Positions 7,572-26,605 of a stretch of DNA of 64,000 nt are shown in pieces. The position numbers were made by a program, and so were the translations under genes. Position 1 is the stretch's first letter, and every line of letters begins with the position of its first letter. The notes under the pieces are model-generated. The model made no database searches. It was not told the origin of the DNA and saw nothing but the letters and a program-made list of their open reading frames with translations. Source of the stretch: Neobacillus piezotolerans. GTDB lineage: Bacteria > Bacillota > Bacilli > Bacillales > Cytobacillaceae. The stretch spans positions 620,001 to 684,000 of the forward strand of contig NZ_QNQT01000001.1 in assembly GCF_003362805.1 (NCBI RefSeq). The letters are read 5' to 3'.

Positions 7572-7573
7572 AA

Positions 7574-7840
7574 CCACTAGCGGGAACACCGCCCGCTAAT
7601 GGAAGTTTCGCTTTTCCCCACCTTAACGGGCAGTAGGATTCCCTAGAGGGAATCAACTGCCCCTAAAGGTCCGATTGGCGAGATACAGTGAAACTTACCG
7701 CTGTGTACTTCAGCGGTTTAGTTGAACCAATCGGGTTCGTACTGTCCGCTTATAATCTTCACGAAGGGAAGATTTTAGCGGCAGTAGAACGGGGACTAAC
7801 CATTAGCGGGAACACCATCCGCTAATGGAAGTTTCGCTTT
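7574..7840 (+). repeat. Structured palindromic element between fabG and acpP
   Basis: No gene is visible between 7572 and 7888. Two 41-bp copies of one palindromic unit (7574-7614 and 7800-7840, differing at three positions) flank about 185 bp. Each unit folds into a 10-11-bp hairpin around TAGCGG and CCGCTA. Between them are three further hairpins: 7628-7662 (GGGCAGT/ACTGCCC with GATTCCC/GGGAATC), 7671-7734 (CCGATTGG/CCAATCGG with inner CCGCTG/CAGCGG) and 7741-7784 (CCGCT/AGCGG with AATCTTC/GAAGATT). CCCC at 7617-7620 could pair with GGGG at 7791-7794 and close the whole. It looks like a mobile palindromic repeat or a structured RNA; no name is recognised. Confidence 0.7.
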
Positions 7841-12608: not shown

Positions 12609-13595
12609 ATGAGTTTTTTCAAAAAACTAAAAGAAACGTTTACTAAACAGACCGACAGTGTAACGGACAAATTCAGGGAAGGGCTTTCCAAAACGAGGAA
12701 CAGCTTTTCCGGGAAGGTCAATGACCTTGTCGCCAGATACCGTAAAGTCGATGAGGATTTTTTCGAAGAACTTGAGGAAATCCTTATCCAGGCGGATGTC
12801 GGCTTTGACACCGTCATGGAATTGATCGATCAATTGAAGTTCGAGGTAAAGCGCCGTAACATTAGCGACCCAGCAGAAGTCCAAAATGTTATTTCGGAAA
12901 AGCTTGTCGACATTTATAATGCCGGCGGAAACGAATCCTCCGAGCTGAATATACAGGAAAACGGGCTTACGGTTATCCTGTTTGTTGGCGTAAATGGCGT
13001 TGGCAAGACAACGACCATCGGAAAGCTGGCTCACAAATTCATTACAGAAGGCAAAACGGTCCTGCTTGCTGCTGGGGATACATTCCGGGCAGGCGCAATC
13101 GACCAGCTTGAAGTGTGGGGCGACCGCGTCGGCGCAGCTGTCATTAAACAAGCCGAGGGATCGGATCCGGCGGCGGTCATGTTCGATGCAATCCAGGCGG
13201 CGAAATCAAGAAAGGCGGATATCCTTCTTTGTGATACCGCGGGCCGTCTGCAAAACAAAGTAAATTTAATGAAAGAACTGGAAAAAGTGAAACGGGTCAT
13301 CGAAAGGGAAATCCCGGACGCACCCCATGAAGTGCTCCTTGTCCTTGATGCGACAACAGGGCAAAACGCGTTGATTCAGGCAAAGACGTTCAAGGAAGCA
13401 ACGGATGTGACGGGCATTGTCCTTTCGAAGCTCGACGGTACCGCTAAGGGCGGAATCGTCCTCGCAATACGGAATGAATTGAATATCCCTGTGAAATTTG
13501 TCGGCCTCGGCGAAAAGATGGATGACCTTCAGGAATTTGATCCTGAAAAATACGTGTACGGCCTGTTTGCCGACCAGGTTGACAAAACTGAATAG
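12609..13595 (+). CDS. ftsY: Signal recognition particle receptor FtsY
   Basis: 328 residues from ATG 12609, 17 bp after smc. A short amphipathic, charged N-terminus (SFFKKLKETFTKQ) is followed by the N domain and the GTPase G domain: GVNGVGKTTTIGK near residue 126, LAAGDTFRAGA, DTAGR and TKLDGTAKGG-type sequence (SKLDGTAKGG). It docks SRP-ribosome complexes at the membrane and acts with Ffh encoded at 26617. In B. subtilis ylxM-ffh follow immediately; here a 12-kb gene cluster intervenes. Confidence 0.95.
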   Translation: MSFFKKLKETFTKQTDSVTDKFREGLSKTRNSFSGKVNDLVARYRKVDEDFFEELEEILIQADVGFDTVMELIDQLKFEVKRRNISDPAEVQNVISEKLVDIYNAGGNESSELNIQENGLTVILFVGVNGVGKTTTIGKLAHKFITEGKTVLLAAGDTFRAGAIDQLEVWGDRVGAAVIKQAEGSDPAAVMFDAIQAAKSRKADILLCDTAGRLQNKVNLMKELEKVKRVIEREIPDAPHEVLLVLDATTGQNALIQAKTFKEATDVTGIVLSKLDGTAKGGIVLAIRNELNIPVKFVGLGEKMDDLQEFDPEKYVYGLFADQVDKTE

Positions 13596-13606
13596 GCAGC
13601 TATTTG

Positions 13607-13640
13607 AACAGTATCGCAATAGTAGCGGTACTGTTTTTTT
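13607..13640 (+). terminator. Rho-independent terminator after ftsY
   Basis: AACAGTATCGC at 13607-13617 pairs with GCGGTACTGTT (one T.G wobble), then a run of seven T. It separates ftsY from the accessory operon downstream. Confidence 0.85.
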
Positions 13641-13645
13641 AATAA

Positions 13646-13674
13646 TTGCACTTTATTCGCTAAAAGTGTAAAAT
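13646..13674 (+). promoter_or_regulatory. SigA-type promoter for the MoxR/VWA/ABC operon
   Basis: TTGCAC at 13646-13651 and TAAAAT at 13669-13674 are exactly 17 bp apart, a few bases after the ftsY terminator. It is the best promoter seen before the operon, which would then have a leader of about 270 nt containing the repeat at 13730-13929. Confidence 0.6.
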
Positions 13675-13679
13675 TACAC
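13666..13679 (+). promoter_or_regulatory. Operator-like palindrome over the -10 box
   Basis: GTGTAA, two bases, TTACAC (13666-13679) is a perfect 6-2-6 palindrome lying over the candidate -10 box TAAAAT. The position is what a repressor site would have. I do not recognise the cognate regulator. Confidence 0.45.
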
Positions 13680-13729
13680 CAAGTTACTTACATAAAAGTG
13701 GAGCAAAAAACAGAGAAAATACGTCTAAT

Positions 13730-13929
13730 CTATATAGGCTGAATTAAATTTAGAATCTTGGTTGATTGGAGCGGAGGGCACCGACTCCTGCGGGATGCAG
13801 CGGCAAGCTGGAGACCCCACAGGCGCCCGCGCCGAGGAGGCTCCACTGACGCCCCGCGGAAAGCGTGTGCCTGTAGCGGAAATCAACCGCAAGGTTAAGC
13901 GGGAAATGAAATTTAAAAAACCTATATAG
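13730..13929. repeat. 200-bp repeat with terminal inverted repeats (family 1, copy A)
   Basis: Bounded by CTATATAGG (13730-13738) and CCTATATAG (13921-13929), with a second inverted pair TTAAATTT/AAATTTAA inside and GGTTGATT/AATCAACC further in. The core contains CGACTCCTGCGGGATGCAG and GCGGAAATCAACC, a palindromic intergenic repeat type I know from many Bacillaceae genomes. No transposase or coding frame is evident and no clear target duplication is seen. Another copy of the core lies at 46555-46690. Confidence 0.7.
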
Positions 13930-13954: not shown

Positions 13955-16330
13955 TTGGCTCGGAAGAACGGAATATTTCTTTTATTTTTGATATTTTCAC
14001 TTTTTGTTTCTTTAATCCCCTTCCCTGCTTCCGCAGCTGCGGATGGGATTAAAATTTCAACGAAAACAGGTTATGGCGGCTATGTGAAAGTTGGCAGGGG
14101 ATTTCCAGTCTTTATCACGGTTGAAAACAGCGGTGAAGACTTTAAAGGCGATCTTCTCCTTAATTTTTACCCGACATACAGTTCATCTGGCGCAAGGGCA
14201 CTCCATATTGACGTGCCAAAAGGGAGCAAGAAAACGTACAGTGTATCCCTTCCCGGCATTTCCGACGAAGGGCAATATTCGAATCCGGGCAGCCGGAACA
14301 TCTTCCTGTACGAGGGAAGCTGGAAAAAAGGGAAGGAAGTTGCTTTCCAGGGTCCAAACAACCTTGCCCTGAAATATACCGACCAATCATGGAAAACGCT
14401 CGGCATTCTGAGCGAGGAACCAGACCGGTTGAAGGAGCTGAAACCGCTGCCCGCTGACAGCAGGATTGAAACGGTTATCCTTGATGGATCCGCAATACCT
14501 GAGGAACATTATGGGCTGGAATATTTTGATTACATCCTTCTTGACGGTTTTCCGCTTTCAAGCCTGAGTCCGGCACAGGAAGAAGCGCTGCTTGCCTGGG
14601 TGAAAAATGGTGGAATCCTGATCGCGGGCGGAGCAGCGAATGCCGCGCAGGCATATGGGAAGCTTTACAGCGAACTTCCAATGGAAACCGGCACCCAATC
14701 AAAGGCGGACCTTACTGGGTTGGAAAGCTCCATCAATCCCGGAGACGAATTTAAATCGGTGCCAGTTTATTTCGGATCAGCGGCCAAAGGCTCGGAAGTG
14801 GTACTGAAATCCGGTGATACTCCAATTGTCGCCAAAAGGCGGGCCGGGAATGGAGAGATTTTGCAAACCGCGTTTTCGGCGGGGGAAGAACCTTTTTCCT
14901 CGTGGAAGGGCTATGGTGAATGGTTCTCCTCGATCCTGGTGAAGGCCCGGCCATTAAAAGCTGGGAACATGCCAGGCTACTACAATCCCTACGATAGTTA
15001 TTTTTCAAATGTCGCCGATGTTAATGCGTACTTTCCTTCGGTCCACTTTTCAACTGGCCAAATTGTCTTGATGCTGGCATTTTATGTTTTGCTTGCTGGG
15101 CCGGCCCTTTATTTCCTGTTGAAGAGGATTGATAAAAGGGAACATGCCTGGTGGATTGTTCCGTCCATCGCGCTTGTATGCTCGGCCGTGATATTTGGTA
15201 TTGGCGCAAAGGACCGGATTGCAAGCCCGCAGGTTAGCCAGATGGGAGTATATAAAGCGTTTGGCGGCGGTATAACTGGCGTTCAAGCCGTTTCACTTCT
15301 GTCCAATACAGGCGGCGATTATACTTTTTCCTTCAAGGGCGGCGAGTTTAATGGAATCCCTGGGTCTTCTTTTGGACCACCTTCCGCCCCGCAGCGCTTC
15401 GCCATCCTTGAAAAAGGAAGGAAGGAGGATTCGGTAACGTTCCGGAATGTGGAATATTGGTCAACAAGGACATTATACGGAAATACATCGATCGATAATT
15501 CAGGCGGATTTGAAACAAATCTTCTTTTTTCCGGAAATAGGATCACTGGAACAATTGTAAACAACTTTCCTTATAATTTTGAAAATGTGTATATATGGTC
15601 CGGTACAAAAAGAGTGGAACTTGGAGGCCTGAAAAAGGGAGAATCCTTAAAGGTTGATCAGGATATGGGCAAAAAGTATTTAACGGCGCCAATTATTGGA
15701 GGGTACGGATACCAGGGCCCAAGCTATTACGGTGAGAATATAGAAAAAATGAAAAGAGAAAGGCTTGAAAACGAAGGGCTCAGCTTCCTTTATAATCAAT
15801 CCAGATTCCAGAACAAGCCAATTGTCTATGGCCTTACAAAAGACCGGGTCATGAAGGCCGACCTTGTGGATAAAAGAGAGAAAACGGCGAGCATTTCGCT
15901 CATCTATCAAGATGTGGATGTTGCCGGGGGACTCAGCGGCGCCTTCTCGATTAACGAGGATTCTCTTTCATTTGACCTGATTCCTGTCAAAGGCGGGAAT
16001 ATCGATTACCAGCCCGGAGCAAAAGAGGCGTTCCTAGAAGATGGTGTATATGAATACATCCTTCATCTTCCTTCTCAGCTTTCCGGGGGAACGATAAAAT
16101 TCGAGGAAATTTCGATTATGCTCCAGCCTGGCCAAGCGGCATATTCTATTAAAAATGCCGAGAGCGGCGAATTTACTAGCCTGGAAAATCCAGTGACAAG
16201 TTTTACAGAACGGCCGGAAAGGTTCGTTTCCGGGGAAGGCGAAATAACGATTCGGCTTGATAAAAAGGGGCAAGGCGACCCGGCAGTAAGGTTGCCATCG
16301 GTAACAATTAAGGGGGAGGCGGGCAAATGA
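13955..16330 (+). CDS. Exported membrane protein with amidotransferase-like region, first gene of the MoxR/VWA/ABC operon
   Basis: 791 residues from TTG 13955, preceded by TGGGGGGAATCAG; an in-frame TTG at 13940 lacks a ribosome site. A signal peptide (hydrophobic LLFLIFSLFVSLIPF, then ASA-type cleavage near residue 27) leads into a beta-rich region, then a segment from about 148 to 235 (TLGILSEEPDRL, DYILLDGF, AWVKNGGILIAGG) resembling class I glutamine amidotransferase-like folds without an obvious catalytic Cys. Two membrane segments (about 370-389 and 399-418) separate it from a C-terminal region of about 370 residues, predicted outside by topology. It overlaps the ABC ATPase gene by 4 bases. 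Function unknown; the context suggests an envelope sensor or a substrate-facing subunit. Confidence 0.8.
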   Translation: MARKNGIFLLFLIFSLFVSLIPFPASAAADGIKISTKTGYGGYVKVGRGFPVFITVENSGEDFKGDLLLNFYPTYSSSGARALHIDVPKGSKKTYSVSLPGISDEGQYSNPGSRNIFLYEGSWKKGKEVAFQGPNNLALKYTDQSWKTLGILSEEPDRLKELKPLPADSRIETVILDGSAIPEEHYGLEYFDYILLDGFPLSSLSPAQEEALLAWVKNGGILIAGGAANAAQAYGKLYSELPMETGTQSKADLTGLESSINPGDEFKSVPVYFGSAAKGSEVVLKSGDTPIVAKRRAGNGEILQTAFSAGEEPFSSWKGYGEWFSSILVKARPLKAGNMPGYYNPYDSYFSNVADVNAYFPSVHFSTGQIVLMLAFYVLLAGPALYFLLKRIDKREHAWWIVPSIALVCSAVIFGIGAKDRIASPQVSQMGVYKAFGGGITGVQAVSLLSNTGGDYTFSFKGGEFNGIPGSSFGPPSAPQRFAILEKGRKEDSVTFRNVEYWSTRTLYGNTSIDNSGGFETNLLFSGNRITGTIVNNFPYNFENVYIWSGTKRVELGGLKKGESLKVDQDMGKKYLTAPIIGGYGYQGPSYYGENIEKMKRERLENEGLSFLYNQSRFQNKPIVYGLTKDRVMKADLVDKREKTASISLIYQDVDVAGGLSGAFSINEDSLSFDLIPVKGGNIDYQPGAKEAFLEDGVYEYILHLPSQLSGGTIKFEEISIMLQPGQAAYSIKNAESGEFTSLENPVTSFTERPERFVSGEGEITIRLDKKGQGDPAVRLPSVTIKGEAGK

Positions 16331-17262
16331 TTGAAATAATGGGATTAACAAAAAAGTATGGCAAGTTTACCGCCCTTGACTCCCTTACGCTGAAAATAGA
16401 GAAGGGAACCGTGTTTGGTTTTGTCGGACAAAATGGTGCGGGCAAATCAACTACGTTCTCCATATTGGCCACACTATTGGCGCCAACTTCAGGAACAGCC
16501 TATATTAATGGGTGCAACATTGCAAAAGAACCCGCGGCGGTCAGGAGGCAAATAGGCTATATGCCGGATTTCTTCGGGGTCTATGACCAGCTGAAGGCTG
16601 TCGAATATCTGGATTTCTACGGAGCAAGCTATGGAATCTCTGCTCAGGAAAGGGCAAAGCTGATACCTCAGCTTCTTGAACTGGTCAACCTGTCCCATAA
16701 GGCGGACTCGTATGTCGATGTTCTTTCGCGCGGTATGAAGCAGAGGCTTTGCCTGGCGCGGTCGCTCATCCATGACCCTGAAGTACTGATTCTTGACGAA
16801 CCTGCTTCCGGGCTGGATCCGAGAGCGCGGGTTGAAATGCGGGAAATCCTGAAAGAACTGAAGATCATGGGAAAAACCATCCTCATTTCTTCCCATATTT
16901 TGCCCGAGCTGGCGGAAATGTGCGATACAATCGGAATTATCGATCAGGGAAGGCTCGTCGCAGAAGGCTCGGTAGCTGAAATCCAAAGGCGCCTTCAGGG
17001 AGAAAAGCTCATCACCGTGAAACTATGGGGAGATCAGGACTTGGCCGCGTCGTTTTTTGAGGACCATCACTTGGTCAGCCGCCTTGAAAAGAGCGACGAT
17101 GGCGAAAAGGTTCAGTTTGTTTTTAGAGGTACGGACGAAGAGCAGTTCCTCCTTTTAAAACAGGCGGTCGCAGCGGATATAAAAGTCATCAGCTTTTCGG
17201 AGGCCGAGTCGAACCTTGAAGATGTGTTCATGGAAATTACAAAAGGAGTTGAGCTGTCTTGA
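16327..17262 (+). CDS. ABC transporter ATP-binding protein
   Basis: 311 residues from ATG 16327, overlapping the previous stop by 4 bases. Walker A GQNGAGKST near residue 37, signature LSRGMKQRL (a common LSGGQ variant in ABC-2 exporters), Walker B VLILDEPASGLDP, and the switch His in ISSHILPELAEM. A C-terminal extension of about 90 residues follows the nucleotide-binding domain, as in CcmA-type ABC-2 ATPases. It pairs with the permease at 17259. Substrate unknown; no periplasmic-type binding protein is encoded, which fits an exporter or membrane-protein remodeller. Confidence 0.88.
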   Translation: MIEIMGLTKKYGKFTALDSLTLKIEKGTVFGFVGQNGAGKSTTFSILATLLAPTSGTAYINGCNIAKEPAAVRRQIGYMPDFFGVYDQLKAVEYLDFYGASYGISAQERAKLIPQLLELVNLSHKADSYVDVLSRGMKQRLCLARSLIHDPEVLILDEPASGLDPRARVEMREILKELKIMGKTILISSHILPELAEMCDTIGIIDQGRLVAEGSVAEIQRRLQGEKLITVKLWGDQDLAASFFEDHHLVSRLEKSDDGEKVQFVFRGTDEEQFLLLKQAVAADIKVISFSEAESNLEDVFMEITKGVELS

Positions 17263-18089
17263 AGCCGTTTTTAAATCCGGTCATGCTTAAGGAATACAAG
17301 CTCAGGTTCCGCTCCTATAAGAGTTTCCTCGGGCTCATGTTTTATTTACTGGCTGTTTCAATCTTTGTTGCTGGCTTTGTTTTTCTAAATTCCCAATCGA
17401 TGGGAGGCGCTTATGTAAGGCCCGATGAGAGCAGGATGATGTTCATGATTCTTTCCTTTATTCAACTTGGGCTGATCCTGTTCATTACTCCCGGTTTGAC
17501 CGCTGGCGTCATCAGCGGGGAGAGAGAGAAACAAACGCTCAATATCCTGCTGACCACGACCCAGAGTTCGGGTGCGATCATCATCGGCAAGCTCGTATCC
17601 TCTGTCTCGTTTTTGTTGCTGATGATTTTCGCGAGTTTGCCAATTTACAGCATCGTTTTCCTGTTTGGCGGCATCTCGCCGCTCCAGCTCCTGACCGTCC
17701 TTGGATACTATATATTTATCATTTTCGTATTCGGAAGTTTTGGCGTCCTCTATTCTACATTGATACGGAGAACGATTGTTTCGATGATTTCAACGTATGG
17801 AACTGCTCTGTTTTTTACGGCGGGTACGGCTTTCCTTATGCTAGTGTCGCTGCAGTTCGGCCATGGCGCGCAGGGGTCCAATCCTGTTCCATACTTCCTT
17901 GCGATGCTGAATCCATTTGCCATTTTGATCGGAATTTTTGAGCCTTCAGCTACTGACGGCCTAAGCGGCCAGACGGGAATTGATTTTCCTTTATGGGCCG
18001 CGCTGCTGATCTCGTACACGCTCCTTTTTACAGCCGCCATTTTGATCAGCATTCGAAAACTGCGTCCGAAAGCAGGAACAAAACGTTAA
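17259..18089 (+). CDS. ABC-2 type transporter permease
   Basis: 276 residues from TTG 17259, overlapping the ATPase stop by 4 bases. Six hydrophobic segments are readable, beginning SFLGLMFYLLAVSIFVAGF. The cytoplasmic motif GVISGEREKQTLNILLTT after the second segment is characteristic of ABC-2 permeases (NatB/YhaP-like). It would form the transporter with the upstream ATPase. Being inside a MoxR/DUF58/VWA operon is the unusual aspect: it suggests that transport or membrane-energy coupling is part of the system. Confidence 0.88.
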   Translation: MKPFLNPVMLKEYKLRFRSYKSFLGLMFYLLAVSIFVAGFVFLNSQSMGGAYVRPDESRMMFMILSFIQLGLILFITPGLTAGVISGEREKQTLNILLTTTQSSGAIIIGKLVSSVSFLLLMIFASLPIYSIVFLFGGISPLQLLTVLGYYIFIIFVFGSFGVLYSTLIRRTIVSMISTYGTALFFTAGTAFLMLVSLQFGHGAQGSNPVPYFLAMLNPFAILIGIFEPSATDGLSGQTGIDFPLWAALLISYTLLFTAAILISIRKLRPKAGTKR

Positions 18090-18105
18090 AAAAGGGTGGA
18101 CGGAA

Positions 18106-19707
18106 ATGGATGATAAAGGTCAGTTTCTCAAGCTTTTGTCCCCGGTAAGGCGGCAGCTGAGGCTAAAGCGGGCAATACTAGGCGCGCAATACGGGTTTGC
18201 GATTGGCGCGGCTGTTTTCGTGGCTGTGCTTCTAGTCGCCAGGATGGTTGTTTTTCCATACTATCACCAGGCTGCATATGTCTGTTCCGGGCTGGTATTC
18301 ATTATTGCGTTTCTGTTTTTTATCCGGCGTTTGCCGGGCTGGAAGGAAGCCGCGGCGCTTTATAACAGCTATATTCCGGAAGACAGGGTGCTATCCGCCC
18401 ATTCATTTCTTGGCGAGGATGGCGCCATCCAAAAGCTGCTCATCAAGGAAACGGTCTCCCGAATGAAAATGGAACAGGAACGCGTCCTTTCCCGTAAAAA
18501 GAAATATCCCATAACAAAATGGTTCACGGTCGGCATTCTCATCGCCGCTTCGGCTGTGTCGCTGGAGCAATTTCCGACTAAAAATATCGAAACCGCTGTA
18601 AAAAGGCAATCCGAGCTTGAAGTCGTGAAAAAAGCGGAGAAAGCAATGGCCGCGCAGCTGAAAAAGGAGATAAATCCACTTTCGAAAAAAGAGCTTGAAG
18701 AATTGATGGAAGAACTTGCGAAAGCTCGGACTCCGGAAGAGGCTTTGAAAGCGATCGATCGGAAAAGGAAGGAGCTCGTCCTCAAGGAGTTGAAGGAAAA
18801 AGAAAAAAACGCCACGCTCGAAGCACTAGCGAATGAGTTAGAGGGAGCGGGGCTTGAAAAACTCGCATCCTCCCTTGCTGAAAAGGATGTTGATAAGGCA
18901 TTGGAGGAAATTAAACGGCTTTCAAATAACGGGGGGAAACTGTCCCCGGCTCAATCTTCCGCCATGAAAAAACTTACCGGGACGGACGGCAGGCTTTCGG
19001 AGGAACAGCTCGGCAGCTTGCGGCAAAAACTTGAGGAGACATTCAACTCACAAGACGGTTTGAAAGAGCTTGCGTCCCTTCAGTATGCGCTAACTAAGCA
19101 AGGGCAGGAACTGAAAAGCGAAATGGCCGCAAAAGGCCTTACTGGAGGCGAGTTCGCGATGGGGCCACAAAAGAATCCACCCAAAGGCCAGGCGCAATCC
19201 GGCAATAAACAGGGAACGCCTCCTCCGGAAACTAATGGTTCTACGGGTACGCGGCCCGGCAGCAAACCGAGCAACGGTGGGGTGCCCGGAAACATCCCAG
19301 GAAGCGGCAATGGAAATGGGAACGGAACGGGGACTGGACAAGGCACCGGGCAAGGGGAGGGAACTGGCAGCGGCGCCGGGCAGGGGAAAGGAACCGGCAT
19401 TGGGCAAGGGGGCAGCCCTGGCGCAGGAGCAGGGCTGGGGCAGGGATCGCGGGAGTTTCTGACTGTCCCGGAGAAAATAGGCGGAAACAAGACTGTCGAA
19501 TCTGATTTTGGGGAGCTTGGTGAAGGAGGCTCATCCCAATTTGAAAGCGATGGTCCTATCCAACTCGGAACGCTCCGTCCGTATGAAGAGGTATACGGTG
19601 AATATGCCGCGTCCTACCGCAACAGCCTTGACAGGGTCAAGCTGCCGGGAGGCCTCGAAACAATCGTTAAAAATTATTTTTCTGATTTGGATCCCGAGAA
19701 GGAGTGA
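18106..19707 (+). CDS. Membrane-anchored coiled-coil protein with Gly-rich linker
   Basis: 533 residues from ATG 18106. Two N-terminal membrane segments (FAIGAAVFVAVLLVA and CSGLVFIIAFLFFI, about 28-74) and a third near 138-155 precede a Lys/Glu-rich helical, probably coiled-coil region (about 165-310). A Gly/Asn/Pro/Thr/Gln linker runs from about 350 to 447, then a conserved-looking C-terminus (PEKIGGNKT, LRPYEEVYGEYAASYRNSLD, NYFSDLDPEKE). This resembles the long helical membrane proteins that accompany MoxR/DUF58/VWA clusters (DUF4175-like), but I cannot assign a family firmly. Probably a scaffold for the ATPase or the VWA proteins. Confidence 0.75.
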   Translation: MDDKGQFLKLLSPVRRQLRLKRAILGAQYGFAIGAAVFVAVLLVARMVVFPYYHQAAYVCSGLVFIIAFLFFIRRLPGWKEAAALYNSYIPEDRVLSAHSFLGEDGAIQKLLIKETVSRMKMEQERVLSRKKKYPITKWFTVGILIAASAVSLEQFPTKNIETAVKRQSELEVVKKAEKAMAAQLKKEINPLSKKELEELMEELAKARTPEEALKAIDRKRKELVLKELKEKEKNATLEALANELEGAGLEKLASSLAEKDVDKALEEIKRLSNNGGKLSPAQSSAMKKLTGTDGRLSEEQLGSLRQKLEETFNSQDGLKELASLQYALTKQGQELKSEMAAKGLTGGEFAMGPQKNPPKGQAQSGNKQGTPPPETNGSTGTRPGSKPSNGGVPGNIPGSGNGNGNGTGTGQGTGQGEGTGSGAGQGKGTGIGQGGSPGAGAGLGQGSREFLTVPEKIGGNKTVESDFGELGEGGSSQFESDGPIQLGTLRPYEEVYGEYAASYRNSLDRVKLPGGLETIVKNYFSDLDPEKE

Positions 19708-19711
19708 TTCC

Positions 19712-20719
19712 ATGGAGTCTTTAAAAGACAAGGAAAATCAATTCAACAGAGCGGCCCAACTGCTTCAATCAGCCAGGGAAGAGATTAAAAAGGCCATTGT
19801 CGGCCAGGAAGAAACGGTCGAACATGTGCTATGGAGCATCCTTTCAGGCGGTCACAGCCTCCTTGAAGGGCTTCCAGGGCTCGGAAAAACAATGCTGATC
19901 CGAACAATCGCCGACTGTATGGATCTTTCCTTCAACCGGATTCAGTTTACGCCGGATTTAATGCCCTCCGACATAACCGGGACAATGCTTCTCCAGCCAG
20001 GCGAAAACGGCAGGCAGGAATTCGTTTTCCATGAGGGGCCTATTTTCGCAAATATTGTCCTTGCCGACGAAATCAACAGGGCGACACCAAAAACGCAGAG
20101 CGCCCTGCTTGAAGCAATGGCTGAACGGACTGTCACCGTAATGGGGAACACAAAAGTGCTGGCACGGCCGTTTTTCGTGCTGGCCACTCAGAACCCGATT
20201 GACATGGAAGGCACCTACCCTCTGCCCGAAGCCCAAATGGATCGGTTCATTTGCAAAATCCTTGTTGGCTATCCTTCAAGGGAGGAGTTAAAGGAAATCG
20301 CCCGGCGGACGACAGGGACAGAGACGCCAACCGTAAAAAAGGTCGTTTCCAAAGATGAGGTCTTCCAGCTTCAGCAGCTCGCGAAGGAAATCCTTGTCTC
20401 GGATGAAATCCTCGAATCGGCGGTTGCAATCGTTACCTGTTCACATCCCGGGCAGGAGGAAGCCCCGGAATCAGTCAATAAGTACATCCAGTATGGAATT
20501 GGGCCGAGGGGGCTTCAAAGCCTTTTAATGCTGGCAAAAGCAAGGGCATTGTGTTCAGGCAGGTACCATGTATCAACCGGGGATTTGAAAAATGCGGCAA
20601 TCCCGTCGCTTCGCCATAGGCTGCTTTTGAATTTTGAAGGGGAAGCACGGGGCCTTGAAACGGATGAAATTATCCATGAGCTCCTTGAACATGCATTAAA
20701 GGCGGCCCAGGCAAAATGA
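19712..20719 (+). CDS. MoxR-family AAA+ ATPase
   Basis: 335 residues from ATG 19712 with GAAGGAGTG upstream; the open frame extends upstream only inside the previous gene. Walker A EGLPGLGKT near residue 53, Walker B VLADEINRATPKTQSALLEAM, sensor 1 FVLATQNPIDMEGTYPLPEAQ and arginine-finger region MDRF are textbook MoxR. MoxR proteins act as chaperone-like ATPases that activate or assemble VWA-domain partners. The DUF58 gene overlaps its stop by 4 bases and two VWA genes follow, the classic MoxR-DUF58-BatA arrangement. Confidence 0.93.
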   Translation: MESLKDKENQFNRAAQLLQSAREEIKKAIVGQEETVEHVLWSILSGGHSLLEGLPGLGKTMLIRTIADCMDLSFNRIQFTPDLMPSDITGTMLLQPGENGRQEFVFHEGPIFANIVLADEINRATPKTQSALLEAMAERTVTVMGNTKVLARPFFVLATQNPIDMEGTYPLPEAQMDRFICKILVGYPSREELKEIARRTTGTETPTVKKVVSKDEVFQLQQLAKEILVSDEILESAVAIVTCSHPGQEEAPESVNKYIQYGIGPRGLQSLLMLAKARALCSGRYHVSTGDLKNAAIPSLRHRLLLNFEGEARGLETDEIIHELLEHALKAAQAK

Positions 20720-21585
20720 GCGCCGGACAGGACGGGCTGCTTGCCAGGCTCCAAAGGAAACGGCTTTCCGTAAAGACGAGAAGAAGGGCGGCCCATAAAG
20801 GGGGACGCCGATCGGGGCGGCCGGGCCAATCCCTGGAATTTTCCGATTTTCGTGCTTACCAGCCAGGGGATGATATCCGTCTGATTGACTGGAATCTTTA
20901 CGGGAGGACGGGCAAGCATTATATTAAAAGATTCCTCGATGAACAGGAAATCCATGTGGCTATTTTTCTTGACGCTTCACCGTCGATGAGGACGATCGAT
21001 ACGAAATGGAGGATGGCGAAGGAAATTGCCGCGGCTCTTTCCTATATTGTCCTGATGGGTGAAGATAGGCTATCCTTCATTCCGGCCTCCTCTTCAGCCG
21101 AAGGAAAAATCACCCGGAAGGGCACGGTCTATGCCAAAAGCGTTTACAAAAGCATCCTGGCGACAGACGGAATGGCGAAGGCCGGGACTTTTACGGAAAA
21201 TGCGCTACGCGAAGGGCTAAAGAGTACCCAAACTGCGATTGTGATAAGCGACGGCCTTGAAAATCCCGGGGAATTTGACACCCTGTTCAGGAAACTTGCT
21301 TTATCGAAGATTGAAGTGAAATTTATCCAGATTCTTTCGGGCGAGGAACTTTTTCCGTCAGAGGCCGGGGATTTGCGGCTGATAGACAGCGAAACCGGAA
21401 CCGCGGTCGATGTCACCATGCGGGAGAGCATTATTAAAATGTACCAAAGAAGGCTGAAGGCGCATAACGCGTCACTTGAACAGCTATGCAGTAAATATGG
21501 TTTTTCCTATTTGGCGGTGTCCGATAGGGATGATTTCCACGAGTTTATTTTTCAAAAATGCACGGCCAAAAAAGTGCTGGAATGA
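20716..21585 (+). CDS. DUF58 domain protein
   Basis: 289 residues from ATG 20716 (ATGA overlap with the MoxR stop). The DUF58 signature is clear: FSDFRAYQPGDDIRLIDW, then YGRTGKHYIKRFLDEQE and the VWA-like FLDASPSMR. The domain is a degenerate VWA fold, and DUF58 proteins are encoded beside MoxR almost everywhere. Unlike many DUF58 proteins it has no membrane segments at the N-terminus, so it is probably a cytoplasmic adaptor between MoxR and the membrane-bound VWA proteins. Confidence 0.9.
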   Translation: MSAGQDGLLARLQRKRLSVKTRRRAAHKGGRRSGRPGQSLEFSDFRAYQPGDDIRLIDWNLYGRTGKHYIKRFLDEQEIHVAIFLDASPSMRTIDTKWRMAKEIAAALSYIVLMGEDRLSFIPASSSAEGKITRKGTVYAKSVYKSILATDGMAKAGTFTENALREGLKSTQTAIVISDGLENPGEFDTLFRKLALSKIEVKFIQILSGEELFPSEAGDLRLIDSETGTAVDVTMRESIIKMYQRRLKAHNASLEQLCSKYGFSYLAVSDRDDFHEFIFQKCTAKKVLE

Positions 21586-21596
21586 GGTGAACCTGA

Positions 21597-23369
21597 ATGC
21601 ACTTTGCCAACCCCGCCTATTTCGCTCTGGCAGGCCTGATAGGATTTGTCATTCTTCTTTATTTTTTCCGCAAACAATATAAGTCTGTCATTAATCCTTC
21701 CAACCTGCTCTGGGCCGAGGCGATGAACGAATGGCAGGCATCCCCCTGGCTGAAGAAATTGCAGAACAGCCTGCTTTTGTGGCTTCAGGTTGCCGCGCTG
21801 GCCCTGTTGATGTTCGCGCTTGGAAAACCTGGCTGGCAAAGCGGGGGCTTGGCTGGGCAGCATTTGTTCCTGATCTTCGACCCTTCCTCGTCCATGTCCG
21901 CGCCGGCGGAAGAAGGGACAAGGGTGGACGGTGCGAAAGAAAAGATGCTTGAACTAGTGGAAAACGGTGGAAGCAGCGAAGTAACTCTCATAACCGCTGG
22001 GCAAAGGCCCGAGGTAATCCTGAACAGGGAAACAGGAACTAAGGCTGCCAGGGATGCGATCCGGTCCCTTTCGTTGACATACGAGCATGAGAATTTGATT
22101 GAAGCGGTAAAGCTTGCTGTATCGCTGTCTTCGGGTAAAGGAAACGAGATACATATTTTTTCAGACGCCGCCCCTAAGGACGAGATAGAGCCGCTTGCAG
22201 GAAACCAATTTATCCAGGTCCATAATAGCGGCACAAAGATAGAGAATCTGTCGCTTCTATCCTTTGGCGCCGCGAGGAAAGGCGATGAAATCAACGCCGC
22301 CGCGGTTATAGAAAACCAGGGCGGCAAAGAACGCGAAGTGCTGTTCAGGGTTAAGGGCGATAAAGAAGCTTATTTTGAAAAAAGCCTGAAAATTAGCCCT
22401 AATAGCCAGGAAATCATCGACATACCCGGTTTACCGGAAAATCCTTATTATTTGGCTGAGGCGGTCGTGAAGGATGGCTATCAGGCGGACAACGAGGCCG
22501 CGGCCGTCCTAACCCCTCCCAATCCGCCCATTTATGCAATCGGGGAAGTGAATCCTTTTTTGTTGAAAGGGTTCAGGTCGCTTGGGATGGAAAGCATACA
22601 GGCTGATAAAAACTCGATCGCTTCCATAAGGGAGGGGGTTTTGCTTGTTGAGGGGAAGGAGCCGGGAAACCTGCCTGATCTTCCGATATTGCTGATTAAT
22701 AAGGAGAAAGGGCAAAGGTGGGAATTGAAAGAAAAAGTAACGGCTGTGGATTCCCCTTTGCTCCAATTCACGGAATTTGGCAAAACCTTCGTAAAATATG
22801 CGGCGGAACCATATAACAGTTCATTCCAGACAATCGCGGAATCCGGCGGACGCCCGCTGATCCAAACAGGCTACAGGAAAGGGCAGCCAGCGGTCGCGGT
22901 AAATTTTGCGATTGAAGACTCTGATTGGCCGCTTCATCCAGGCTTTCCAATCTTCCTGTACAATAGCTATCAATGGCTCTCCCAGCAATCCCGGTTTCTA
23001 GGGTATTTCCAGCCCGGTGAAGAGAAGTGGCTTGCATTGGATTCTCCGGAAGGGAAACTCGCCATTTTTGGCCGGAGCGGGAAAAACCTGGCCGAATATG
23101 ATTTATCGAAAGAGAATTTCAAAGCACCTTTTAAACCAGGCGTTTACCAGGCATCCACCGGCAGCCAAATTCATTACTTTTCCGTGTTATTGGACGACAG
23201 GGAAAAGGCCGCGCCAAGTTCGGATTCATTTACATTGAATAAAAAGCCCCGTGAACAGGGGAAAAACGGCGTCCGCGAAAATGAAGCCGCCTGGCTGGCG
23301 CTCGCCATGCTTGCCTTTTTCGCTTTATTGATAGAATGGGAGGTGTACAGGCGTGGGCTTGGACGTTAA
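21597..23369 (+). CDS. BatA-like VWA-domain membrane protein
   Basis: 590 residues from ATG 21597 with GAGGTGA upstream. The N-terminus (FANPAYFALAGLIGFVILLYFF, written here as nt 21603-21668) is BatA-like, with a second membrane segment near 60-77. A VWA domain follows with MIDAS motif FDPSSSMS near residue 97 and ITAGQRPEV, then a beta-rich C-terminal portion and a final membrane segment (AWLALAMLAFFALLI, about 562-576). VWA domains bind metal and protein ligands, and in this context are the likely MoxR clients. The stop overlaps the next gene by 17 bases. Confidence 0.88.
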   Translation: MHFANPAYFALAGLIGFVILLYFFRKQYKSVINPSNLLWAEAMNEWQASPWLKKLQNSLLLWLQVAALALLMFALGKPGWQSGGLAGQHLFLIFDPSSSMSAPAEEGTRVDGAKEKMLELVENGGSSEVTLITAGQRPEVILNRETGTKAARDAIRSLSLTYEHENLIEAVKLAVSLSSGKGNEIHIFSDAAPKDEIEPLAGNQFIQVHNSGTKIENLSLLSFGAARKGDEINAAAVIENQGGKEREVLFRVKGDKEAYFEKSLKISPNSQEIIDIPGLPENPYYLAEAVVKDGYQADNEAAAVLTPPNPPIYAIGEVNPFLLKGFRSLGMESIQADKNSIASIREGVLLVEGKEPGNLPDLPILLINKEKGQRWELKEKVTAVDSPLLQFTEFGKTFVKYAAEPYNSSFQTIAESGGRPLIQTGYRKGQPAVAVNFAIEDSDWPLHPGFPIFLYNSYQWLSQQSRFLGYFQPGEEKWLALDSPEGKLAIFGRSGKNLAEYDLSKENFKAPFKPGVYQASTGSQIHYFSVLLDDREKAAPSSDSFTLNKKPREQGKNGVRENEAAWLALAMLAFFALLIEWEVYRRGLGR

Positions 23370-26148
23370 ATATCCCCTCATGTTTGCCCTCACTCTCCCG
23401 GCGGCTTATCTCATGTACTTGTTTTTCAGGCGGACGGGTACGATGGAGCAAAGAATTATCGGAATCATCCGGTCTGCTGTTCTCTTGCTGATCATATTCG
23501 CACTGGCTGTACCGCAATTTGTTTTTCCGGCCAAAACAGAAACGGTAGTTTTCCTTGTGGACAGATCGAAAAGTGTCGAGTCCCTTGGTGAAGAAGCGCT
23601 TGACTGGATCCATGAGGCAGTTTCCAAAAATGGCGCGGGAAAACAATTTGCGATTGCTTCTTTTGCGAAAAATCCGCAATCCGAATTGTCCCTGTCCAGC
23701 GGCGCCGAAATCCCGTCCCAATTTAGCGGTAATCTTGATAAGACTGAAACAGACATCAGCTCAGGACTGCGGTTCGCTTCTTCGCTCATACCAGGGGACC
23801 AGGCGGGGAGGATTGTCGTTTTTACAGATGGAAACAATACTGCAGGCGAAGCAGCTTCAGCGGCCCGGATGGTAAAGAACAGGATGATCGAACTGGACTA
23901 CGTCGCGATGAAGCAAGCGGAAGGAAAGGACGCCGCGATCACGTCGTTCACAGTTCCGCCGACTCTTTTTGAAGGGGAAAAGACATCAGTATCCGTTGCC
24001 ATTTCCAGCAATGCTGAACTGGATGCCACTTTAAGGCTGACAGTTAACAACAGGGAGATTTTAAGAAATGGAGTAAAGCTGAAGGAAGGGAACAATGCCT
24101 ATACATTTTCCCACGCTTCTTCTGGCACCGGACTCGCGGTTTATAAGGCGGAATTAATCAATTCCGGGGATGCGCATATAGAAAACAATTCACTTTTCGC
24201 TGTCGCGGATGTAAAAGGTGTCCCCAAAGTGCTAGTTGTCGAAGGAACGCCAGGCGGCATGCTCCCGGAAATCCTGCGTGCTTCTGGCCTTACGGTCGAT
24301 GCCATCGCGCCGGAAAGGCTGCCAACCGGCCTTGGCCGGTATCTGCAATACCAATCGATCGTTTTCGAGAATGTTCCCGGCCACACGGTGTCCGAGGAAC
24401 AAATGGGCCTGATTGAGAAAGCGGTCCGGGAATTCGGGACAGGCTTCGTCATGACAGGCGGCGAAGACAGTTTTGGACTCGGCGGTTATTTTAAAACCCC
24501 GATCGAAAAGCTGCTTCCTGTCGATATGGATATAAAAGGAAAGAAAGAAATGCCGTCACTCGGCCTGGTGATTGTCATTGACCGTTCCGGAAGTATGGAT
24601 GGAGCAAAGCTCGCCCTCGCGAAGGAGGCGGCGGCAAGGTCAGCTGAATTGCTTCGGGAGGATGATACACTCGGTTTCATCGCGTTCGATGACAGGCCTT
24701 GGGTGGTGGTCGAGACGGCCCCATTGACAAATAAGCAGGAAGCCATAGATAAAATCCGTTCCGTCGCGATCGGCGGCGGCACGAATATTTATCCAGCCCT
24801 CGAAAAGGCATATAGCGAGCTTCGGGATTTAAAACTCCAGCGCAAGCATATTATTTTACTGACCGATGGCCAATCCGCCACGGACGGAAATTATGCGGCA
24901 TTGATAGAAGAAGGGAAAAAGCGGAACATCACGCTCTCAACTCTTGCACTAGGCAGTGATGCTGACCGGAGGCTGCTTGAGGAGCTGGCAATGATGGGGA
25001 GCGGCCGGTTTTATGATGTTTCGGACGCCTCGGTTATCCCGAGCGTGCTATCACGTGAAACCGTCATGACAACGAGGACATATATCGAGGACGACCCGTT
25101 TTATCCGGTGATAGAGGCTTATCCTGAGTGGATGTCCCTTTTTGAAAAAGGCGTTCCACAAATGAATGCGTATATTGCCGTTACGCCAAAGCCGCGGGCG
25201 AGCGTTCCTATTTTAAGCGAAAAAGACGACCCAGTCCTCGCCCAGTGGCAGTACGGACTTGGTTCAACTCTCGCGTTCACGTCCGGCGTTGCGGGAAAAT
25301 GGGCCGGAGATTGGGCGAAGTGGGCTGGCTGGCCGGGCTTCCTAAATCAGGTTGTCGCCGAATCGCTTCCGAAATATACTAGCGAGCCGTTTTCGGTGGA
25401 AGTGAATAAAGATAAAGGGAACGCGGTTATTTCATTGAGCAGCGGAAACGCCGAAATCATACCGGTTGAAGCGTCAGTCCTGACGCAGGATGGGAAAGCG
25501 GTTGATGCGTATACGAAGCTGGTTTCCCCAGGGCAGTACGAGCTTGTTATCCCTGGAAAGCCCGGAATGTATTACCTATCCATCAGGAAGAAGGATAAAG
25601 ATGGAACCGCGTCTTTATACCGCACCGGCTTCTCCGTCCCTTATTCGGAAGAGTTTTTGCTGAAGGGAACGAATAAGGAGCTTTTGAATGAGCTTGTTTC
25701 CATAAGCGGGGGAAGGGAGCTTTCCTCCCCGAAAGATGCGTTCAGGCCTTTGGCGTCAAAGCCGCTCAGAAAACAGCCTGTCAGCGAGTATCTGCTCCTG
25801 GCTGCCTTCCTTTTGCTTGTCGCTGAAATCTTCCTGCGAAGGTTTGGAATCGGAGTGCTCGGGAAGTTAATACCAAAACGGAAGCCTCGGGAAGAAACAA
25901 GAGCTGATTCCGGAACTGCTGTTTTGGGCAGGCTGGCGAAAGCGAAGGAGCGTACCGGGAATAAATCTGGCCCGAAGAAGCCTGATCCTCCTTTCCTAAA
26001 GGATCCAGAAACAACTTTTAATAAAAATGGAGGCGTCCCTGTCCAGCCGACTGCGGAAGAAAAGAAGCCTGTATCAATGGACTTCGGTTCTTCTGGGAAG
26101 GAGGACAGGATGAAACGCCTTCTTGAAGCGAAGAAGAGAAAAGGATAG
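23353..26148 (+). CDS. Large membrane protein with two VWA-like segments, last gene of the operon
   Basis: 931 residues from GTG 23353, preceded by GGGAGGTG and overlapping the upstream gene. Two N-terminal membrane segments (to about 60) lead to a VWA-like segment with FLVDRSKSVES near residue 67. A central region with VLVVEGTPGGMLPEILRASG resembles a glutamine amidotransferase-like fold. A second, canonical VWA domain follows with VIVIDRSGSMDGAKL near 412. After further beta-rich sequence comes a membrane segment (YLLLAAFLLLVAEIFL, about 812-828) and a basic, Pro/Lys-rich tail. The tandem VWA plus amidotransferase-like layout is known in proteins annotated as glutamine amidotransferase/VWA of MoxR clusters, with no established role. 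A terminator follows. Confidence 0.86.
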   Translation: MGLDVKYPLMFALTLPAAYLMYLFFRRTGTMEQRIIGIIRSAVLLLIIFALAVPQFVFPAKTETVVFLVDRSKSVESLGEEALDWIHEAVSKNGAGKQFAIASFAKNPQSELSLSSGAEIPSQFSGNLDKTETDISSGLRFASSLIPGDQAGRIVVFTDGNNTAGEAASAARMVKNRMIELDYVAMKQAEGKDAAITSFTVPPTLFEGEKTSVSVAISSNAELDATLRLTVNNREILRNGVKLKEGNNAYTFSHASSGTGLAVYKAELINSGDAHIENNSLFAVADVKGVPKVLVVEGTPGGMLPEILRASGLTVDAIAPERLPTGLGRYLQYQSIVFENVPGHTVSEEQMGLIEKAVREFGTGFVMTGGEDSFGLGGYFKTPIEKLLPVDMDIKGKKEMPSLGLVIVIDRSGSMDGAKLALAKEAAARSAELLREDDTLGFIAFDDRPWVVVETAPLTNKQEAIDKIRSVAIGGGTNIYPALEKAYSELRDLKLQRKHIILLTDGQSATDGNYAALIEEGKKRNITLSTLALGSDADRRLLEELAMMGSGRFYDVSDASVIPSVLSRETVMTTRTYIEDDPFYPVIEAYPEWMSLFEKGVPQMNAYIAVTPKPRASVPILSEKDDPVLAQWQYGLGSTLAFTSGVAGKWAGDWAKWAGWPGFLNQVVAESLPKYTSEPFSVEVNKDKGNAVISLSSGNAEIIPVEASVLTQDGKAVDAYTKLVSPGQYELVIPGKPGMYYLSIRKKDKDGTASLYRTGFSVPYSEEFLLKGTNKELLNELVSISGGRELSSPKDAFRPLASKPLRKQPVSEYLLLAAFLLLVAEIFLRRFGIGVLGKLIPKRKPREETRADSGTAVLGRLAKAKERTGNKSGPKKPDPPFLKDPETTFNKNGGVPVQPTAEEKKPVSMDFGSSGKEDRMKRLLEAKKRKG

Positions 26149-26152
26149 ACTG

Positions 26153-26185
26153 AAAACACCGCCGGAATAAGCGGTGTTTTGTTTT
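26153..26185 (+). terminator. Rho-independent terminator ending the MoxR/VWA/ABC operon
   Basis: AAAACACCGC at 26153-26162 pairs perfectly with GCGGTGTTTT at 26171-26180, followed by GTTTTC. Confidence 0.85.
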
Positions 26186-26204: not shown

Positions 26205-26233
26205 TTGACACCGCAGCTTGCGGACTGTAAACT
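26205..26233 (+). promoter_or_regulatory. SigA promoter of ylxM-ffh
   Basis: A consensus TTGACA at 26205-26210, 17-bp spacer and TAAACT at 26228-26233. The spacer begins with a small palindrome, CCGCA-GCT-TGCGG (26211-26223), directly after the -35 box. Confidence 0.8.
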
Positions 26234-26272: not shown

Positions 26273-26605
26273 ATGCTTGAGAAAACAACGCGAATGAATT
26301 ATCTTTATGATTTCTACCAGTCGTTGTTGACGGAAAAACAGCAAAGCTATATGTCTCTCTATTACCTGGACGATTATTCGCTCGGGGAGATTGCCGAAGA
26401 GTATGATGTGAGCCGCCAGGCCGTTTATGATAATATTAAACGTACTGAAGCAATGCTCGAGGAATATGAAGAAAAACTGCTTCTGCTGCAGAAGTTCCAG
26501 GAGCGCAGCGTAATGTTGGGGAAAATGAAAGAATTGATCAATTCCGATCCAATCCCTAAGCAGGCCATGCTTGATGCGGTGGCCGAGCTTGAGAAACTAG
26601 ATTAG
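26273..26605 (+). CDS. ylxM: YlxM, SRP-associated helix-turn-helix protein (UPF0122)
   Basis: 110 residues from ATG 26273 with AAGGAGGG upstream. All-helical, with a sigma-70 region 4-like helix-turn-helix ([19 protein letters not shown]) and the family N-terminus [19 protein letters not shown]. It is always next to ffh, and streptococcal and other YlxM proteins are reported to modulate the SRP GTPases. ffh starts 11 bp downstream. Despite the DNA-binding-like motif, its partner is probably SRP rather than DNA. Confidence 0.93.

Follow-up and report, generated by a model that had tools for sequence, protein, structure and literature searches.

Why should an exporter and a MoxR-type ATPase with its VWA-domain partners be encoded in a single operon, and what might such a combination do for the cell? 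The question is raised by a 64,000-nucleotide (nt) stretch of Neobacillus piezotolerans DNA (contig NZ_QNQT01000001.1, positions 620,001–684,000 of the forward strand; hereafter the window), in which eight genes on one strand join an ABC ATPase and an ABC-2 type permease to MoxR, DUF58 and VWA proteins. A sequence-only reading of this DNA had proposed that the exporter and the MoxR machine form one envelope-remodelling or secretion apparatus. Here, the eight genes are found in one order in nearly all Bacillales loci read, and two features new to this analysis point to their control: a promoter of the extracytoplasmic function (ECF) sigma type before the first gene, and exporter-only loci elsewhere in Bacillota that carry ECF sigma and beta-propeller genes. 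The explanation we prefer, and to which we give about an even chance, is an envelope-stress-induced membrane machine in which a MoxR/DUF58 engine would assemble or gate an outward-facing complex tied to the ABC-2 exporter.

Organization of the eight-gene operon

The coordinates of the eight genes were re-derived and agree throughout with those first read, including overlaps of 4, 4, 4 and 17 nt and gaps of 16, 4 and 11 nt between the open reading frames. All eight lie on the plus strand. The first (P1, 13955–16330) starts at a TTG preceded by GGGGGG and encodes an exported, membrane-anchored protein of 791 residues. It is followed by the ABC ATPase of an ABC-2 exporter (DrrA/GldA-like, 16327–17262), assigned from Pfam and NCBIfam-type model matches and motif patterns, and by a GldF-like ABC-2 type permease (17259–18089). 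P4, a Gly-rich coiled-coil membrane protein (18106–19707), separates this pair from the MoxR AAA+ ATPase (19712–20719), a DUF58 protein with a VWA-like domain (20716–21585), a BatA-like membrane-anchored VWA protein (21597–23369) and P8 (23353–26148), which is membrane-anchored and contains two VWA domains with weak GATase1-like segments. The corresponding Pfam families, from gene 1 to gene 8, are DUF7408; ABC_tran; ABC2_membrane_2, slightly below its cut-off; none; AAA_3/MoxR; DUF58; BatA with VWA_2; and two VWA domains.

The exporter and MoxR genes stay together in Bacillales

Is this arrangement an accident of one genome? Among 41 related genomes taken from the species itself, its genus, its family and its order, P1 is present in 17, and the same 17 contain P8 over most of its length and a MoxR of at least 58% identity, the next MoxR matches reaching no more than 47%. 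The 16 other regions fetched from these genomes contain all eight genes in identical order, so that the exporter and MoxR sets never occur apart in the nearest genomes (17 of 17). A scan of named genomes extends this result. It kept 80 of 330 loci, of which 63 are recorded as Bacillales or Caryophanales; one recorded as Pseudomonas (L096) was added to give 64, leaving 16 others. The eight genes stand in one order in 62 of the 64, the two exceptions being a short contig (L126) and a locus with P8 split over two frames (L086). These counts rule out a chance junction of the eight genes in the window.

Spacing is kept as well. Median junction gaps across the 62 loci are −4, −4, 14, 5, −1, 10 and −17 nt, and the junctions P1–ABC, P4–MoxR, MoxR–DUF58 and BatA–P8 never exceed 50 nt. 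Gaps above 50 nt are found between permease and P4 in 16 loci, between DUF58 and BatA in five, and between ABC ATPase and permease in one. In the tree, loci recorded as Pseudomonas (L096), Paenibacillus (L091) and Sporosarcina (L098) fall inside Cytobacillus and are probably misnamed. One genome (G014, locus L072) has a lone broken piece of P8, with none of the other seven genes in the stretch read; this piece is probably a decaying remnant.

Linked and separate modules beyond Bacillales

How far does the linkage reach? A sample of 398 Bacillota genomes contains P1 in 60 and P8, with matches kept at E 1e-30, in 51; both are found in 42 genomes, P1 only in 18 and P8 only in nine. P1 and P8 lie on one strand within 20 kb in 35 of the 42. 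Of the remaining seven, six carry the two genes on separate contigs; in the last (G352, locus L217) the P1 match falls inside the P8 frame, is probably false and is still counted in the 60 and the 42. Reading 38 of the 59 other P1-positive genomes showed the eight-gene order in 18, the commonest form among them; within these 18, three stretches stop before P8, and P4 in three and P8 in one run over two frames. The exporter trio of P1, ABC ATPase and permease stands alone in 12 of the 38 loci, in seven the operon lacks the ABC ATPase and combines the MoxR set with either P1 or a gene marginally similar to it, and one locus is cut by a contig end. The nine P8-only genomes were also read, and three of them contain weak P1-like genes.

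Outside Bacillota, several of the 16 remaining loci of the named-genome scan are truncated by contig ends. Two loci recorded only as "bacterium" (L139, L143) have MoxR, a P1-like gene, ABC ATPase, permease, DUF58, BatA and P8 in one run, and a planctomycetotal locus (L144) reads ABC ATPase, permease, P8, MoxR, DUF58, BatA. In three further Planctomycetota loci (L135, L138, L145) the permease profile finds a match close to the MoxR set; the remaining ten of the 16 have no such match, two of them (L141, L146) with ABC ATPase matches. The sequence-only reading had held that ABC-2 pairs are not standard members of MoxR clusters. The loci do not support this in the form given, in view of the prevalence of the eight-gene order and the pairs that adjoin MoxR in L144, L139 and L143. 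It had also named the finding that would count against a joint unit, namely that the ABC pair and the MoxR set usually occur apart in relatives, and this is borne out in part, by the trio-only loci of wider Bacillota (12 of 38) and not in the 41 nearest genomes. Because 62 of 64 and 18 of 38 loci share the order while 12 of 38 have the trio only and seven of 38 have no ABC ATPase, the linkage is read as old and selected, and the modules as separable.

A group of loci without an ABC ATPase (L205, L206, L208, L212, L217, L222, L225) has a six-helix membrane protein in the place of the permease. Here a P1-like gene, the six-helix protein, MoxR, DUF58 and P8 form a group that no ABC ATPase gene interrupts; resemblance to P1 is marginal in L217, L222 and L225 (E 1e-2, 4e-4 and 4e-3). 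Scored against the permease, the six-helix protein reaches 20.7 bits in L212 (hhalign 69%) and 10.6 bits in L225 (hhalign 2.5%); that of L222 reaches 4.7 bits, where the top score among 14 unrelated membrane proteins is 4.3, and lower values were obtained for the other four loci. Kinship with the permease thus appears visible in L212, weak in L225 and not above the controls in the other five.

An ECF-type promoter before P1

What signal would switch on such a unit? The claim of one promoter region and one terminator stands for the terminator, a terminator-like hairpin at 26160–26176 (plus strand, hairpin scan) that ends the unit behind gene 8, and takes a different form for the promoter. A sigma-70 scan from 13640 to the P1 start at 13955 gave no site, which sets aside a sigma-70 promoter before P1, and a pattern scan instead located a better-fitting ECF-sigma-type promoter at 13699–13729 (plus strand), composed of a weak −35 box TGGAGC, a spacer of 17 nt and a strong −10 element CGTCTAAT. 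The pattern was TGAAAC with at least 4 of 6 positions, 16–17 nt, and CGTC, after the ECF consensus TGAAAC-16/17-CGTC. Qualifying sites precede P1 in 38 of 64 Bacillales stretches (the window and 63 loci, L126 being left out since it has no P1), compared with a mean of 2.27 and a maximum of 6 in 100 shuffled runs. Six control positions in the same loci gave 0–6%: ylxM 1/40, ftsY 0/38 (a count that may take in ffh in place of ftsY in L096), MoxR 0/64, P4 1/63, BatA 4/64 and ABC 4/63. All seven genus relatives carry TGnAGC/T-17-CGTCTAA, as does the window, and Sutcliffiella and its kin, with the operon at another chromosomal site, carry an exact TGAAAC with a T run.

In other orders an ECF-type site precedes 11 of 38 loci (shuffled mean 2.72, maximum 6), among them six of the 18 eight-gene loci. 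The exporter-only loci provide a second kind of signal: in 10 of 12 (L185, L192, L194, L197, L200, L201, L202, L214, L219, L220), P1-ABC-permease is directly preceded by genes for an ECF sigma factor and a beta-propeller protein, and in the two that lack the sigma gene (L186, L203) P1 has an ECF-type site ahead of it. Four of the ten sigma genes were confirmed by Pfam, and the other sigma and propeller genes are assigned from a home-made profile or from sequence reading; Sigma70 regions 2 and 4 were found in all four sigma genes scanned, and PD40 in all four propeller proteins scanned. The beta-propeller protein is possibly an anti-sigma factor. With a threshold of E 1e-5, the home-made sigma profile detected no sigma gene in the eight-gene loci.

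The window's own genome encodes a SigM-family protein scoring over the cut-off and has three exact TGAAACNTTT-11/13-CGTC sites, compared with one match for a reversed-pattern control. One of the three precedes a second MoxR-DUF58-transglutaminase operon and another a gene read as spx; spx is a SigM target. The first of these lies at positions 2020–2046 of locus L266 (own contig C11), where an exact ECF-type consensus stands directly before a MoxR operon resembling what we take to be yeaC-yeaD-yebA, ahead of a gene presumed to be guaA. Six own ECF-type sigma genes were considered, and CGTC-type sites precede two (L259, L260), with one further site of CGTA type. The ECF-type promoter and the neighbouring ECF sigma genes elsewhere in Bacillota fit an envelope role, and these motifs suggest that the operon would be switched on under cell-envelope stress.

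Domains of the encoded proteins

The products of the first three genes are consistent with an exporter and an extracytoplasmic partner. The ABC ATPase (ABC_tran, 101.6 bits in Pfam) keeps the Walker A, signature, Walker B and H-loop patterns and matches the GldA model at E 8.8e-73 with 245.4 bits, below the equivalog cut-off of 402.6. The permease matches ABC2_membrane_2 (PF12679) at E 3.8e-6, with 26.8 bits against a cut-off of 27.2, and the GldF model at E 6.4e-7, with 29.6 bits against an equivalog cut-off of 288.5. An ABC ATPase paired with an ABC-2 membrane protein identifies the two as an ABC-2 exporter. P1 consists of beta domains, a GATase1-like domain that is non-catalytic, and a membrane hairpin of two helices in which D393, R395, E396 and W399 are invariant. 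Structure comparison (VIA-align) places residues ~145–335 close to GATase1-like structures; the matches fall mostly on that domain and hold little information on the beta domains, and a sequence search of the PDB with P1 gave no homologue at E 1. DUF4350 is matched weakly by six of 29 P1 members (best E 3.8e-4), the P1 of the window not being among the reported matches, and ABC_transp_aux by two of 29 (best E 0.042). No GldG model is found among the 20 NCBIfam families matched by the 29 members, and an identity of P1 as ABC_transp_aux or GldG is not established.

P4 begins with two membrane helices by hydropathy, with a likely third at residues 138–155, and continues with a long helical stretch, a disordered Gly-rich linker and a conserved C-terminal helical hairpin. 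In the alignment the hairpin carries the motif GxIRPYxEVYxxYxxxYRxSxxRxxLPxxLExIVKNYF, which is also found directly ahead of MoxR in two Chloroflexota loci (L152, L149). Its AlphaFold model is partly disordered (pLDDT 67.4, pTM 0.40). Pfam matches to P4 members are scattered and weak; the best, TrAA12 (E 6.1e-8, 11 of 29), lies on the Gly-rich part in the window protein, and these were set aside as low-complexity.

MoxR matches AAA_3 with 207.7 bits against a cut-off of 27 and has the motifs GLPGLGKT, VLADE and ATQNP. The DUF58 protein has no membrane helix by hydropathy and is placed in the cytoplasm; of its metal ion-dependent adhesion site (MIDAS), D86, S/T88, S90 and D179 are kept in 65 of 65 sequences. 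The BatA-like protein (BatA 47.4 bits, VWA_2 39.4 bits) keeps D95 and S97 in 65 of 65, D190 in 64 and T/S161 in 55. The profile of P8 resolves a BatB-type VWA domain at 62–190, which matches the BatB structure 3ibs (E 2.8e-7), a GATase1-like segment at 323–395, a second VWA domain at 408–574 and another GATase1-like segment at 612–671. Gene 8 had been read as a two-VWA protein, which Pfam bears out, and the GATase1-like matches around the second VWA are an addition, significant for the whole sequence only and not as single stretches. Both MIDAS motifs are complete: D70/S72/S74/T133/D159, with T or S at position 133, and D410/S412/S414/T477/D505 in 64 of 64. The C-terminal tail, which ends RMxRLLxAKxRK, would be cytoplasmic. 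The alignments contain no conserved Cys column, the best being 19 of 64 in P1 and 24 of 64 in P8, which rules out either protein as an active amidotransferase; the earlier label of P1 as amidotransferase-like applies to its fold and no further.

Chromosomal site and inheritance

The operon lies between genes that we take, following the labels of the sequence-only reading, to be ftsY (12609–13595) and ylxM (26273–26605), with smc upstream and ffh downstream. It does interrupt the smc-ftsY-ylxM-ffh block, as that reading had noted, and this is not special to the window genome: the ftsY–ylxM site holds 41 of the 64 upstream stretches, L096 being assigned to it from downstream genes, and is the usual operon place in much of Bacillaceae. 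A tree of MoxR, ABC ATPase and DUF58, in which the rows for L078 and L096 have no site label, needs four site changes, compared with 18.5 when labels are shuffled; the operon was therefore mostly inherited in place, and it is old and for the most part vertically kept. P8 matched 18 plasmid records, none covering 80% of the protein. The ylxM region was also read in 20 genomes with no operon at that site. In the 16 that have no operon, the ftsY–ylxM gap is below 200 nt in 10 of 15 measured and 290–1844 nt in five, with one unmeasured; in the four with the operon elsewhere, it is 112, 163, 440 and 624 nt.

A terminator-like hairpin behind ftsY (13606–13636, plus strand), with a 12-pair stem and a T run, forms the upstream border of the unit, and its inverted repeat is kept in five relatives. 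A perfect palindrome GTGTAAAATTACAC follows at 13666–13679. With up to two mismatches it is found in 27 of 41 ftsY-site stretches and in none of 23 others; it therefore belongs to the site, and a role as operon operator is ruled out. Between promoter and P1, the leader contains a hairpin-rich dispersed repeat (13755–13905, plus strand; fold z −2.1) with 22 matches in the own genome including itself, which is absent from the equivalent place in five relatives and is no part of the system. Downstream, a sigma-70-like site from the promoter scan (26205–26233) fits ylxM by position. Elsewhere in the window are a tandem repeat of 24-base period (61735–62070) and two 43-base copies, 93% alike and 226 bases apart (7572–7614 and 7798–7840).

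Discussion

How might the eight proteins work together? In the envelope-stress machine that we favour, transcription of the operon would be started by a SigM-like ECF sigma factor. The GATase-fold and VWA domains of P1, the BatA-like protein and P8 would lie outside the membrane beside the coiled-coil P4, and the ABC ATPase and permease would make up an exporter of the GldAF kind, partnered by P1 on the extracytoplasmic side. In the cytoplasm a ring of MoxR, using the DUF58 VWA protein as its adaptor, may grip exposed cytoplasmic parts such as the basic tail of P8 and spend ATP on assembling, disassembling or gating the membrane complex. The output would be the export or rearrangement of an envelope component (a lipid, a polymer or a surface protein), aiding repair of wall or membrane. 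How the modules are physically coupled, in which direction they work and what kind of substrate they handle are inferences. The proposal of one envelope or secretion apparatus is supported in part: the exporter and MoxR genes are linked far beyond chance, keep their spacing and have ECF signals, and the single physical apparatus that they would form is a putative one.

Several observations weigh against this reading. P1 is missing from 24 of the 41 related genomes, and the trio-only loci show the modules to be separable. The −35 box of the window agrees with the pattern at only 4 of 6 positions, 26 of 64 stretches have no qualifying ECF-type site, including all seven Planococcaceae-type loci (L127–L132, L134), and the own SigM-family gene (L257), used as a positive control, has no consensus site ahead of it. 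Among the 11 sites found beyond Bacillales, three (L201, L202, L219) are nearly the same and coincide with the end of the gene before, and kinship of the loci inflates all promoter counts. The middle MIDAS Thr of the DUF58 protein is without clear conservation in the alignment of 65, and it is gene linkage that ties MoxR and DUF58 to the membrane proteins. The whole account is a prediction from genome sequence.

The main rival is that the genes are merely co-regulated, such that two independent envelope-stress modules, a GldAFG-like exporter and a Bat-like chaperone built on MoxR, have one promoter in common and act on different targets. This is possible and clearly the less probable of the two. 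It would account for the 12 exporter-only loci, ten of them with their own ECF sigma gene, for the seven loci with a MoxR set and no ABC ATPase, and for the permease–P4 junction being the loosest of all. However, P4, which lies between the modules, goes with the MoxR side, P1 stays with the MoxR set in several loci without an ABC ATPase, and in Bacillales departures from the eight-gene order are limited to one short contig and one P8 divided over two frames. An unlikely alternative is a classical MoxR chaperone, in which MoxR, DUF58 and the VWA proteins would mature, or load a cofactor into, one extracytoplasmic or membrane enzyme while the ABC pair delivers or removes that ligand. MoxR-vWA pairs are described as chaperones of other systems in PMC7159879, and the complete MIDAS motifs of P8 agree with such a role, but at the commonest site, ftsY–ylxM, where neighbours were read, the unit contains no enzyme gene.

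A dedicated secretion system for a protein or surface polymer, like the archaeal DUF4350-MoxR-vWA system, is less likely still. It draws on the weak DUF4350 matches of six P1 members and on the GATase1 fold of P1, which is shared with a domain of GH42 beta-galactosidase, a relation also given for arCOG01314 in PMC5898192; yet the unit has no cargo gene and the best DUF4350 match is only E 3.8e-4. It is highly improbable that the operon is a MoxR-vWA ternary system for conflict or phage defence. MoxR does exceed the bpMoxR cut-off of 27 with 44.2 bits, but its AAA_3 score is far higher, inheritance is mostly in place at a housekeeping site, and no effector-type family occurs among the eight proteins by Pfam (the PADLOC defence library was not searched); VMAP, iSTAND, FtsH and beta-propeller families, as in such ternary systems, are absent from the Pfam results for the operon genes.

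Four known systems come closest. Bat operons, associated with aerotolerance, have the gene order MoxR-DUF58-BatA-BatB-TPR, and the window shares MoxR, DUF58, BatA-like and BatB-like VWA proteins in that order. The TPR protein (BatC/BatE type) is missing: no TPR family is found by Pfam in the eight window proteins at E 0.01, and one of 29 P4 members matches TPR_14 at E 0.037. Unlike the Bat operon, the window operon adds P1, the ABC ATPase, the permease and P4, and its P8 has the second VWA domain and weak GATase-like segments. The Bat gene order is given in part in PMC11834572, which also ties MoxR-Bat to stress resistance in Riemerella. With the GldA-GldF-GldG gliding system, the operon shares an ABC ATPase and permease that match GldA and GldF and a P1 placed like the extracytoplasmic partner, whereas the GldA and GldF scores lie far below the equivalog cut-offs. 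A MoxR-DUF58 pair also occurs in the MoxR-DUF58-transglutaminase operon of Bacillus, presumably yeaC-yeaD-yebA, whose copy in the own genome stands behind the exact ECF consensus; its MoxR is 46% identical, and no ABC pair, BatA or P8 lies beside that operon in the stretch read. The arCOG01314 (DUF4350)-MoxR-vWA cluster, with a GldG-like DUF4350 protein, is predicted to be an archaeal secretion or membrane-remodelling system (Makarova et al., PMC5898192). It likewise combines an extracytoplasmic flavodoxin/GATase-like membrane protein, a MoxR AAA+ ATPase and secreted vWA proteins in one operon; the window operon differs in having a complete ABC-2 pair, DUF58, BatA and P4, and in its weak DUF4350 matches, and Pfam finds no Ig or S-layer family among its eight proteins. 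In the open-access literature, judged by titles and the beginnings of abstracts, no description of the eight-gene operon or its ECF promoter was found.

The loci with a six-helix protein in the place of the permease raise a further, quite doubtful proposal, namely that a permease of the ABC-2 type is driven or gated by the MoxR/VWA engine. If this were true, an AAA+ ring acting via VWA proteins on the extracytoplasmic side would take over from the ABC motor, and an exporter would be energised in a new way and controlled by ECF envelope stress. MoxR-Bat operons occur widely; the conserved, complete exporter within this operon, together with the ECF signals, points to wall and membrane stress as the place to look for what they do in the envelope. 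The operon provides a defined set of partners, and with it the question of what MoxR and the membrane VWA proteins act on can be put to direct test in a common Bacillus of the soil.

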